A stretch of 64,000 nt of DNA, from NCBI GenBank assembly GCA_029552545.1, contig JAKPDO010000019.1:1-64000 (forward strand), given 5' to 3'. Shown in pieces: positions 1 to 6,886 of the stretch (the first letter of the stretch is position 1; the number at the start of each line of letters is the position of its first letter). Made by a program: the position numbers and the translations under genes. The notes under the pieces are model-generated. The model was not told where the DNA came from, did no database searches, and saw nothing but the letters and a program-made list of their open reading frames with translations. Source of the DNA: Planctomycetota bacterium (lineage in GTDB: Bacteria > Planctomycetota > Phycisphaerae > Sedimentisphaerales > Anaerohalosphaeraceae).

Positions 1-1426
1 ATTTTTCCCCTGATGAATAAGGGATTGAAACCCTTGCAGACAATCACATTGTGTTCCGCCGCCGACTCCCGCTCCGCTTGCATTTTTCCCCTGATGAATA
101 AGGGATTGAAACTGCCTTTAAGGGCGGCTCCGCAGCTGCAGTTAACCTCTCTTGCATTTTTCCCCTGATGAATAAGGGATTGAAACTGTTTGTGAGATAG
201 TCGGGGATGGGTTGCCCTGTTTTTAGCTTGCATTTTTCCCCTGATGAATAAGGGATTGAAACTCGCCGAGTGCTTTCCACTCGGTTTCTTCACGTGGCCG
301 AAAAAACCACTTGCATTTTTCCCCTGATGAATAAGGGATTGAAACACATAATTTAGCGTTTCCGGCCGTTTACCTTCTGACAGCGCCTTGCATTTTTCCC
401 CTGATGAATAAGGGATTGAAACTACATCATAATCATAGATTCTCCAATCAATGCCGTTGTCCTTGCATTTTTCCCCTGATGAATAAGGGATTGAAACCCC
501 CCCGACAAATCGTAGTACAATCCCCATTTTTGAGCTTGCATTTTTCCCCTGATGAATAAGGGATTGAAACTTCTTATACATTCCCCCGATTTCGGCCAAG
601 AAGTAGCCCACTTGCATTTTTCCCCTGATGAATAAGGGATTGAAACAACTGTGGATTAATGTTATCGGGATACTCTCCGATAATGTGTAGTACTTGCATT
701 TTTCCCCTGATGAATAAGGGATTGAAACCCAGAATGGCCGGCAAGCCGTGTTCATTGTACAACTCCACACACTTGCATTTTTCCCCTGATGAATAAGGGA
801 TTGAAACCTTCTTTGACAGCCCCTAACTTAATTAATTGCTCGAGAGCCGCTTGCATTTTTCCCCTGATGAATAAGGGATTGAAACTGTAGATATCCACAA
901 AGTGGCGGCTGTAGGGCTGATTGCCCGTCTTGCATTTTTCCCCTGATGAATAAGGGATTGAAACTCTTTTTCTCGACGGAATTGAGTTTAATTGCCCCCC
1001 AGGGCTTGGTCTTGCATTTTTCCCCTGATGAATAAGGGATTGAAACTCATAATTTAGCGTTTCCGGCCGTTTACCTTCTGACAGCGCCTTGCATTTTTCC
1101 CCTGATGAATAAGGGATTGAAACGTCAAAAATCTCATCTATCGTATAGCCGGCGGCTTTCAGGCCTTGCATTTTTCCCCTGATGAATAAGGGATTGAAAC
1201 TGCCGATGTTGTCGCCGTCTAACTCCTGTACCTCACCTTTTCTTGCATTTTTCCCCTGATGAATAAGGGATTGAAACACTTCAAAGCCCGTGCGGTAATA
1301 TAATCCCAGTTTACCGCTTGCATTTTTCCCCTGATGAATAAGGGATTGAAACACTTGCTCGCCCATCACCATTGCGGCGGCGTCTATAGGCTTGCATTTT
1401 TCCCCTGATGAATAAGGGATTGAAAC
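1..1426 (+). CRISPR. CRISPR array, 19 repeats and 18 spacers, cut by the left edge
   Basis: The repeat is 36 nt, beginning CTTGCATTTTTCCCC and ending AAGGGATTGAAAC. All 18 full copies appear identical; the first copy (1-31) lacks its first 5 nt because the window starts there. Repeats begin at 77, 151, 227, 310, 387, 462, 535, 611, 693, 772, 850, 929, 1011, 1088, 1165, 1242, 1317 and 1391. Spacers are 37-47 nt. The ATTGAAAC end is the classic 8-nt crRNA 5' handle of many type I and III systems, so transcription is inferred left to right, with the leader and probably the cas genes left of the window. The right flank is not AT-rich, which agrees with a trailer end. Spacers 5 (346-386) and 14 (1047-1087) are the same except for the first base. 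No cas gene is in the window, so the subtype is open. Confidence 0.98.
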
Positions 1427-1465
1427 TGAACGGCAGCCAGTCTCCAGACACCAGTTGCCAGTTAT

Positions 1466-2164
1466 CAGTTATCAGTCATCAGTGAGCAGTTATCCTGCAA
1501 ATTCGTTTGCTTTTCTCCCTCCTTTTCTTAATCCGTGTAATCCGTGAAATCCGTGGTTAATTTATTTGGGTGTTCACGTTTTGTATTTCGGATTTCGGTT
1601 GTTCCCGGCCGCTGGATTCTCGCCTTCCTTCTTCGCTGAAGCTGCGAAGGACGAGACGCGGGAAGAGGAAGAATGGATTCCCGCCTGCGCGGGAATGACA
1701 ATAAGGGCGGGAATGACAATAAGGGCGGGAATGACAATAAGGGCGGGAATGACAGTAAGGCGAGGGAGTGACAACGAAGACGGGGATGACAGCGAGGGCG
1801 GGAATGACAGGCGCGGCGTTGGATATCCTCCTGTCTCCTTCGCTAAAGCTTCGGAGGACAAGACGCGGGTTTCTTGTGTTATCCGTGAAATCCGCGGTTA
1901 AGTATCCAGTGGCCAGTTATCAGTCATCAGTGAGCAGTCATCCTTGTAAATTCGTTTGCTTTTCTCCCTCCTTTTCTTAATCCGTGAAATCCGTGTAATC
2001 CGTGGTTAAATGAAAGCTTAAGCGGCCAGCAGCCAGAAGCCAGTGCCCAGCATTCAGTTGCCAGTCTTCAGTTATCAGTCATCAGTGAGCAGTTGTCCTG
2101 CAAATTCGTTTGTTTTCTGCCTTGGTTTTTTTGAATCTGTGAAATCTGTGTAATCTGTGGTTAA
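1466..2164. repeat. Three dispersed copies of a ~95-bp non-coding repeat
   Basis: Copies lie at about 1466-1560, 1914-2009 and 2069-2164. Each has CAGTTATCAGTCATCAGTGA, then a stretch containing AAATTCGTTTG, then a ~10-bp periodic tail of AATCCGTGA/TAATCCGTG units ending in GTGGTTAA. The third copy is the most diverged (AATCTGTG instead of AATCCGTG). Between copies one and two is a further repeat cluster (1619-1872). I see no credible gene between the CRISPR array and 2229; the short open frames here are low-complexity products of the repeats. Confidence 0.85.
1674..1814. repeat. Inverted repeat followed by ~7 decaying 18-bp tandem repeats
   Basis: A short inverted repeat, TTCCCGCCTGCGCGGGAA, starts the block. 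Its right arm is the start of an 18-bp unit, GCGGGAATGACAATAAGG, at 1689, 1707 and 1725. A one-base variant follows at 1743, and more diverged units continue to about 1814. Flanking it are two related motifs, CTTCGCTGAAGCTGCGAAGG (about 1639) and CTTCGCTAAAGCTTCGGAGG (about 1840). The GGAATGAC-type element is a REP-like sequence seen in many bacterial genomes (general knowledge); here one arm appears to have expanded in tandem. Confidence 0.8.
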
Positions 2165-4651: not shown

Positions 4652-6886
4652 TCACAGATTCGGGTCGGCGGCGGCAGCGGGCGCAGGCACATTCGGGTCT
4701 GCCGACGAAGGGAGAGGATGCTCGGAGGCAAGGATTTTTGCTTTCAGAATCGTCAGGCCGGCGGCCAGCGGCGGGTCGGAGCTGACGAGCGCCTCCAGCA
4801 GAGGCAAAAGGTCCTGCTGAATCTGCTGCGGGCTTTTGTCCTGGGATTCGCGGAAGAATTTTTCGAGATTGCGGCGTGCCTGGCGGGCTTTTTCCAGCTG
4901 CGGTTCGCCCGTTTCCACAATCACATCCGGCAGCAGACCCCAGTCGGTTCGATTTTGTTTGAGCCGCTGATAGCGATTGGGAACCTCCCGGCCGTCGGAC
5001 AGCTGATAAATACCGCGGGTGTATTTGAGCCGGCAGCCGTTGGGAAGGGGTTCGACCTCCTGAACCGTGCCTTTCCCGTAGGTGCGGGTTCCGACCAGAA
5101 CGGCGCGGGGCGCGTGCGGAGCGGCCAGAGCACCGGCCAGAATTTCCGCCCCGCTGGCGGTGCCGTCATCGACCAGAACGGCCATCGGGATATCCAGCTG
5201 AAGCGCGCCGGCGGCGGCCGTGATTTCCTGCTCAATGCCTTCCCGCGTGCAGGTTCGGACGATGACGCCGGTTTCGAGGAACAGGTCTGCGACGCCGACG
5301 GCCGCATCGAGCAAACCGCCGCTGTTGGAGCGAAGGTCCAGCAGCAGGCCGCGCAGCCCGTTGGCGTGAAGTTTTTCGAGAATCTGCCGCAGCGTCTGGG
5401 CGGTGTCTTTTCGAAAGCCGCTCAGCCGAATATAGGCGATGTGCGGGTCGGCATCAATCTGATAGGCGCTCAGACCGCCGTTGGTTTTCAGGGGCTGCTC
5501 GAGCGGGGAGGTGTTGCCGTGCAGCGACGGCAGGACAATTTTGCGGCGGAGAAGCGTGACAGTCTGTTCCTCCTCATGCCGCCGGAGAGTCAGAGTGACG
5601 GGAGTATCTGCCGGACCGGAAATCAGGCGAACAGCACAGTCAAGAGTCAGGTTTTCCGTAGAGGTTCCGTCAATGGCCAGGATGGAATCGCCGACTTGAA
5701 GCTGTCCGGATTCCTCCGCGGGAGAATCGGGGATGATTTCGATAATGGTCAGCTGGTTGTCCTGACGGGCAATCCGAATGCCCACACCGGCGAACTCTCC
5801 GCTCATCTGCTTGTCAAACTCTTCGCTTCGGGCGGGCCAGACGATTTCGGTATAGGGGTCCAGCTCCTCCAGCACGGCCTCGGCAAGCAGCTGCACGAGC
5901 AGACCCTCCGGCAGCCGAAGGGTCGAGCGGTTCAGGTCCAGCAGGATGCGGATTTGTTCGAGAAAGGCCGGAAGGTCTGATTGGGTCTGCGGGGATGAGT
6001 CTGCCGATTCCTGCAGATTTTTCAGCCGCTGGTTCCATGCAGCCAGCGTATTCGGATCTGCAGAGTAGAGAAAATCTTTTCGTCCGCAGGCGAGCACCTC
6101 TCCGATGTGCCGGGCACAGGCGAGGGCACGGCGGTTCAGGGCCGAATAATTCAGGGGAATGAAATATTTTTGGTCGAGCCGCCGGAGGGCTTCAAAGAAA
6201 ATTTCGGCCTGGACGGAGGCATAAGGATCGCTCTGGCCCGGACAAAGGGGGGCTGTGAGTTTTTTCTCAACGGCGATTTTGGACAGCAAGTCGGTTTTTT
6301 CCTGCTGCAGAGCCGGATTGTTCGGGTCGGCGGCCAAAAGCACCCAAAGACCGGCCCGCCAGGCTTTTTCATATTCTCCCTGCGACTGCCAGCGGCGGAT
6401 ATTTCGGCGAATTTGTTCGGTCAGCGAGGAGACAAAAGGTTCCGACAAAAACTTGCGTTCGTCCGAATGATCCTTTCGGCTCTGAATCAGCAGAGAAAGG
6501 ATTTCCTCCGGCTTTGCCGAAACCTGATTGGGGTCGCTCCGGAGCTGTTCGATTCTCTGGTGCAGTTTTTCGGCGGCCTGCTGATTTTGCCGCCTCCATT
6601 CCTCCTGAAACGTTTTGTATCGTGTCAGAAGCGTGTGAAGATTTCGGCGAAAGTCGTCCTCCCGCCGGACAGACCGCTCGAGGAGCAACAGAGCAGTATC
6701 AAAATCGCCTTTGTCCACATAGCCCAGCAGAAGGGTTCGTTCGGCCTGCTGAAGAGAAAAAGGTTCGGCGGCCCGGCGGGACGGACAATTGCAGTCGTTT
6801 GCCGTCCCTGCGGCGGCGAAACTGATTAGAACTGCCGCCGGCAGCAGGGCGTGATAAATGGATACGAGCCGCTTTTTACTTTGCAT
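4652..6886 (-). CDS. S41 family C-terminal processing peptidase with PDZ domain
   Basis: This is an exported serine protease of the CtpA/tail-specific protease family, 744 residues. It starts with a signal peptide (hydrophobic 14-27, ending AAAGTA). A long helical, charged N-terminal region (about 40-300) has no family I can name. The PDZ domain is at about 365-445 (FAGVGIRI, PAEESGQLQVGDSILAIDG). The catalytic S41 core follows, with nucleophile S578 in DDGTASGAEI and general-base K605 in TYGKGTVQ. PDZ and S41 order is normal, but the N-terminal extension is much longer than in plain CtpA. It sits 54 nt downstream of rpoD on the same strand and may share its transcript. The physiological substrate cannot be read from the sequence. 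Confidence 0.92.
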   Translation of the reverse strand: MQSKKRLVSIYHALLPAAVLISFAAAGTANDCNCPSRRAAEPFSLQQAERTLLLGYVDKGDFDTALLLLERSVRREDDFRRNLHTLLTRYKTFQEEWRRQNQQAAEKLHQRIEQLRSDPNQVSAKPEEILSLLIQSRKDHSDERKFLSEPFVSSLTEQIRRNIRRWQSQGEYEKAWRAGLWVLLAADPNNPALQQEKTDLLSKIAVEKKLTAPLCPGQSDPYASVQAEIFFEALRRLDQKYFIPLNYSALNRRALACARHIGEVLACGRKDFLYSADPNTLAAWNQRLKNLQESADSSPQTQSDLPAFLEQIRILLDLNRSTLRLPEGLLVQLLAEAVLEELDPYTEIVWPARSEEFDKQMSGEFAGVGIRIARQDNQLTIIEIIPDSPAEESGQLQVGDSILAIDGTSTENLTLDCAVRLISGPADTPVTLTLRRHEEEQTVTLLRRKIVLPSLHGNTSPLEQPLKTNGGLSAYQIDADPHIAYIRLSGFRKDTAQTLRQILEKLHANGLRGLLLDLRSNSGGLLDAAVGVADLFLETGVIVRTCTREGIEQEITAAAGALQLDIPMAVLVDDGTASGAEILAGALAAPHAPRAVLVGTRTYGKGTVQEVEPLPNGCRLKYTRGIYQLSDGREVPNRYQRLKQNRTDWGLLPDVIVETGEPQLEKARQARRNLEKFFRESQDKSPQQIQQDLLPLLEALVSSDPPLAAGLTILKAKILASEHPLPSSADPNVPAPAAAADPNL

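Follow-up and report, generated by a model that had tools for sequence, protein, structure and literature searches.

Spacers of type III CRISPR systems show a known strand bias. In public genomes, on average 65% of them match the coding strand, and in Moraxella III-B 88% do (Vink, 2021, PMC8482600). In the type III-A/B systems of Thermus thermophilus, which lack a reverse transcriptase (RT), spacers are taken from both strands and selection yields the bias (Artamonova, 2020, PMC7515739). In arrays of this organism with two new spacers, the unprotected 'cold'-region spacers were leader-proximal in 98% (PMC7515739). In III-A systems, naive uptake can even prefer the coding strand close to start codons (review PMC9048733).

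We analyzed a stretch of 64,000 nucleotides (the window) that represents contig C7 of a 3.09 Mb planctomycetal, Phycisphaerae-like genome in 58 contigs and starts with a CRISPR array. The system resembles the one of T. thermophilus, where Cas1-Cas2 likewise works without an RT and protective spacers are complementary to transcripts (PMC7515739). In T. thermophilus the selection was however measured in infected laboratory cultures, whereas here it is deduced from a natural array with known targets for two of 18 spacers. As in the public genomes (PMC8482600), the guides are antisense to the mRNA; compared with the average found there, the value is about 79% genome-wide and about 100% in the window, an estimate based mainly on codon statistics and not on protospacers. 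With the I-F and III-B systems of Marinomonas mediterranea the locus shares several CRISPR types directed against the same phages and spacers in both orientations (Silas, 2017, PMC5576922). That bacterium has an RT-Cas1 and its III-B system uses I-F guides, whereas here the systems have separate repeats, three Cas1-Cas2 sets and no RT (PMC5576922). Our analysis makes it quite probable that the window carries that end of a III-A array which is distal to the leader and presumably older, with guides antisense to phage mRNA, and that the array was formed by strand-blind uptake of DNA and subsequent selection.

The window starts with the distal end of a type III array

Contig C7 begins inside the array and the leader is consequently absent from it. 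Repeats of 36 nt alternate with 18 spacers of 37-47 nt (Table 1). Spacers 5 and 14 are the same but for the first base (A/T), so that 17 independent spacers remain; the near-identity points to rearrangement of the array or to uptake on two occasions. An array of another genome (G003 C25, L181) contains spacers in two and three copies. The guide strand is the plus strand, since the repeat ends in a type III-style 5' handle, ATTGAAAC, and the conserved leaders of the sister arrays are located on the 5' side. An 8-nt handle of this kind at the repeat 3' end and the presence of Cas6 are both features of type III-A systems. The same repeat is present in a MAG labelled uncultured Phycisphaerae. The array is followed by a dispersed repeat of which about 19 copies are found genome-wide, also at other type III trailer ends, and short tandem copies of an 18-bp unit lie between array and uvrC.

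Four more array segments, on contigs C40, C50, C21 and C29, belong to the same repeat family. The conserved type III leader has exactly three copies in the genome (C40, C21 and C29), and trailer ends are also three (C7, C50 and C21). Thus, C7 and C50 are the leader-distal ends of arrays starting in C40 and C29, and the repeat variants seem to favour the joins C40-C7 and C29-C50.

Table 1. Features of the window array and of associated loci. Positions without a locus name refer to the window; LLR, codon-model score, positive values favouring an antisense guide.
Feature	Position	Strand	Description
Leader-distal segment of type III array	1..1426	+	18 full repeats CTTGCATTTTTCCCCTGATGAATAAGGGATTGAAAC and one cut by the contig start
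Spacer 1	32..76	+	protospacer 42/45 in 709-aa gene of Mu-like phage (G001 C9); guide antisense
Spacer 2	113..150	+	LLR +0.7 (antisense, weak)
Spacer 3	187..226	+	LKTGQPIPDYLTN on minus; LLR +6.2; plus strand without open frame
Spacer 4	263..309	+	LLR +1.4
Spacer 5	346..386	+	one base apart from spacer 14; LLR -0.3, strand call undecided
Spacer 6	423..461	+	DNGIDWRIYDYDV on minus; LLR +0.7
Spacer 7	498..534	+	LLR +2.4
Spacer 8	571..610	+	LLR +2.1
Spacer 9	647..692	+	LLR +4.3
Spacer 10	729..771	+	CVELYNEHGLPAIL on minus; LLR +3.5
Spacer 11	808..849	+	ALEQLIKLGAVKE on minus; LLR +5.3
Spacer 12	886..928	+	protospacer 40/43 in large terminase gene of Mu-like phage; guide antisense; 3/3 mismatches synonymous (TGNQPYSRHFVDIY)
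Spacer 13	965..1010	+	TKPWGAIKLNSVEKK on minus; LLR +3.1
Spacer 14	1047..1087	+	copy of spacer 5 with other first base
Spacer 15	1124..1164	+	LKAAGYTIDEIFD on minus; LLR +1.3
Spacer 16	1201..1241	+	KGEVQELDGDNIG on minus; LLR +6.5
Spacer 17	1278..1316	+	LLR +4.1
Spacer 18	1353..1390	+	LLR +2.7; oldest if order equals age
Last repeat, trailer end of array	1391..1426	+	
Dispersed repeat	1436-2100		CAGTTATCAGTCATCAGTGAGCAGT-type
Tandem copies of 18-bp unit	1687-1809		GGGCGGGAATGACAATAA
C29 array	L012:55-708		leader-proximal, beside III-A operon
Cas10/Csm1 and Csm2-Csm5	L012:1250-7182		PADLOC E 1e-16 to 1e-106
Cas6	L012:7160-8200		E 4e-83
ARPP-1 domain protein	L012:8437-9489		upstream of cas6
WYL/HTH regulator	L012:9654-10655		upstream of cas6
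Csm6-like gene	L010:7424-8749		CARF-HEPN; Csm6 HEPN 2.7e-23
Cas1	L009:11841-12902		plain Cas1
II-C Cas9	L022:4353-7402 (C17)		two reading frames, 365 and 645 aa; frame change near 6300
Empty arrays (G004)	L185:2432-2468, L186:1804-1840		reverse-complement coordinates

The genome encodes a complete III-A system and no reverse transcriptase

The C29 leader is adjoined by a complete III-A operon (Cas6-Cas10-Csm2-Csm3-Csm4-Csm5), and the window repeat is of the same family as the array beside this operon. The HD and GGDD motifs of Cas10 are intact in the translation (LHDIGK and YAGGDDLLLV; Pfam palm2 8e-35). The Csm6-like gene is located near C50, and its product is predicted to be a cOA-activated ribonuclease. 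Directly upstream of cas6, the III-A locus encodes a protein with an ARPP-1 domain and a regulator of the WYL/HTH type. A further genome (G004) has two empty arrays, each consisting of a type III leader and one repeat.

Cas1 and Cas2 are encoded upstream of the C40 leader. An RT fused to or located beside Cas1 was not found, as RVT_1 has no match anywhere in the 99.97% complete genome. Acquisition driven by an RT was rejected for this reason. In addition, the genome contains systems of types I-C and II-C, which have 11 and 28 spacers, respectively, and repeats of their own; both repeat and leader of the type III arrays are distinct from their counterparts. The II-C Cas9 is split, owing either to damage to the gene or to misassembly.

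Codon statistics show an antisense bias of the window guides

The original prediction started from the observation that every spacer has a stop-free frame on the minus strand, which is correct for all 18. Spacer 3 indeed lacks such a frame on the plus strand, and the four minus-strand peptides quoted were located as given. As evidence for a strand this consistency has no weight: 17 of the 18 spacers are open on the plus strand too, with 33 open frames on minus and 32 on plus, and dinucleotide shuffles leave 16.6 ± 1.1 of 18 open on minus (P=0.22). Because the count is not significant, stop-free frames were discarded as a strand criterion. Start-codon motifs (SD..ATG) in 136 spacers were uninformative, with five on the opposite and three on the guide strand (shuffle means 3.4 and 1.2).

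We used a codon-position Markov model. It was trained with host genes as well as viral contigs unrelated to the phages examined, and the arrays were kept out of the training. For single 41-nt fragments of two phages outside the training set it finds the right strand in 73-74%, so that single calls are weak. In the window the minus strand is preferred in 16 of the 17 distinct spacers and the ML antisense fraction is 0.999 (CI 0.86-1), an estimate unchanged across five training sets. Antisense guides thus significantly exceed 50%, as is known for type III systems. By this measure the spacers are protein-like opposite the crRNA strand, as had been proposed; the wording 'every spacer' does not carry over to the sister arrays.

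For all 77 type III spacers of the genome the antisense fraction is 0.79 (0.65-0.90), and arrays of other genomes of the family reach 0.73-0.79 (P<0.001). In the same genome, spacers of types I-C and II-C are unbiased (0.40, 0.16-0.68). Short spacers that are open on both strands could by chance give such a picture in an array that is really 50:50, and the stop-free count as well as the genome-wide protospacers (see below) would agree with this. We regard it as extremely unlikely, since under the codon model the window is incompatible with 0.5 (2dLL 17.7) and the control arrays are near this value: in simulations at 50:50 from real phage gene fragments, none of 200,000 reached the window sum (P<5e-6), and P is still 2e-4 when the three best spacers are left out. 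The guides could also be pyrimidine-rich for some other reason and oppose purine-rich coding strands by coincidence. Purines make up 43% of the guide strand in the window spacers, and composition accounts for 1.1 of the mean LLR of 2.8. Such an artefact is nevertheless very unlikely, because the signal persists after strand composition is removed; periodicity alone gives 0.999 (0.71-1), with a sum that none of 20,000 simulations at 50:50 reached, and the known window protospacers are antisense in genes with mismatches that are nearly all synonymous.

Phages of a same-genus genome carry protospacers

Two phage contigs with protospacers were found in a genome of the same genus (G001). The first (C39), a temperate phage, encodes RecT, a terminase and a portal protein and is matched by type III and II-C spacers; the second (C9) is Mu-like, encodes a MuA-type transposase and a terminase and is matched by type III and I-C spacers. 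The strand check suggested with the original prediction, run in part, gave known targets for two of the 18 window spacers (1 and 12), and both guides are antisense inside genes of the Mu-like phage. One of the quoted peptides, GNQPYSRHFVDIY, is an exact piece of the large terminase of this phage. Genome-wide, seven of 11 type III protospacers are antisense (C7-1, C7-12, C40-14, C40-16, C50-11, C29-8 and C29-9) and four sense (C40-12, C40-13, C29-2 and C29-5), which alone does not differ significantly from 50:50. The I-C protospacers are two antisense and three sense; those of II-C are two each, with one more in a region of ambiguous gene strand. The protospacers of four spacers (window 1 and 12, C50-11 and C40-13) have 14 base mismatches in total, and 13 of them are synonymous in the gene frame. 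Spacer C40-12 matches, in sense orientation, two paralogous contigs (L040, G001 C58; L131, G001 C55) with one open frame of about 1168 aa each; the frame from L040 has no Pfam or PHROG match.

Searches of other collections returned little. Using blastn against 50,697 phage records, no window spacer matched and the whole set gave noise only. Five window peptides searched as degenerate patterns in IMG/VR had no match there; the phage A terminase and the 1168-aa frame had no relative in it, and the phage B terminase had nine (best 57% identical). Comparing all spacers with nearly all G001 contigs (first 20-40 kb each) and the phage B relatives yielded nothing beyond the 11 type III protospacers (shuffled control 0), and a comparison of the spacer frames with relatives of the phages at the peptide level found the known matches only.

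I-C protospacers have a TTC-like 5' flank and II-C protospacers an NNNAAT-like 3' flank, whereas the 11 type III flanks carry no motif. Compared with the handle, 0-2 of 8 positions match in ten flanks and 5 of 8 in one, which belongs to a sense spacer; a PAM is thus not seen. These data bear on the idea that another effector with a strand preference is, or once was, served by the array and that the bias does not come from III-A. Types I-C and II-C co-occur here, and a weak coding-strand bias is reported for some type I arrays (PMC8482600). Since type III repeat and leader differ from theirs, the type III protospacers lack their flanks and their own spacers show no such bias, we give this idea hardly any credit. 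The reading of the guides as antisense to mRNA, in line with type III immunity, is supported by the III-A genes, the Csm6-like gene, the guide strand, the two antisense window protospacers, the codon model and the unbiased I-C and II-C spacers.

The strand bias appears to change along the arrays

By segment, the antisense fraction is 1.0 for C7, 0.90 for C50, 0.80 for C40, 0.69 for C21 and 0.13 (0-0.53) for C29. Trailer-side segments reach 0.98 (0.83-1) compared with 0.58 (0.37-0.78) on the leader side (likelihood-ratio p=0.0016, 0.055 without C29; permutation p=0.003); this gradient was spotted post hoc and rests partly on one nine-spacer segment, C29. With the leader-proximal ends from other genomes included, the fraction is 0.53 (0.30-0.76) for the five spacers closest to the leader in seven arrays and 0.88 (0.75-0.98) for all others; two G003 arrays taken alone show no positional trend. 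The newest spacers thus apparently show a weaker bias.

The C29 array leans sense, unlike the other arrays, and of its four spacers with a mapped protospacer two are sense and two antisense. The guide strand of one C29 spacer contains an ATG and a ribosome-binding site. Such a segment would fit naive III-A uptake from the coding strand near start codons.

A near-complete bias such as that of the window could also be made during acquisition itself, by copying of RNA or by a preference for single-stranded template DNA, and RT-Cas1 systems with RNA-derived spacers exist (PMC5576922). Strand-selective acquisition predicts the opposite of what the newer, leader-proximal spacers show, namely mixed strands and, in C29, a sense leaning; the genome moreover lacks an RT and RT-less type III uptake is strand-blind (PMC7515739). 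We therefore consider it improbable.

Discussion

Strand-blind uptake followed by selection would act as follows. Cas1-Cas2 without an RT would take spacers from phage DNA irrespective of the strand. As Cas10-Csm acts only if the guide pairs with a transcript, such spacers would be retained by selection, and the old end of an array would become almost purely antisense; leader-proximal spacers would be newer, less filtered and of mixed strands. We infer that the bias results from selection and not from acquisition, that the position of a spacer reflects its age and that the system is active. The I-C system, and the II-C system if Cas9 is intact, could allow useless type III spacers to ride along.

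The window is a strong example of the strand bias known from type III systems. A gradient with spacer age is less familiar, and we found no report of bias by spacer age in natural arrays in the open-access literature. We tentatively suggest, as a possibility short of an even chance, that strand purity rises with age in natural type III arrays, new spacers being random or sense-leaning and old ones nearly all antisense, and that no bias develops in the I-C and II-C arrays which the same cell directs at the same phages. If the gradient is general, the antisense fraction by position would be a gauge of type III selection in nature, obtained from codon statistics without known phages; if it holds in more genomes, it would separate selection from acquisition in nature. 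Codon statistics of spacers make the strand bias accessible for arrays with unknown phages, that is for most type III spacers. For an uncultured lineage, and with two DNA-targeting systems of the same genome as controls, the data suggest that type III spacers are kept for their pairing with mRNA.
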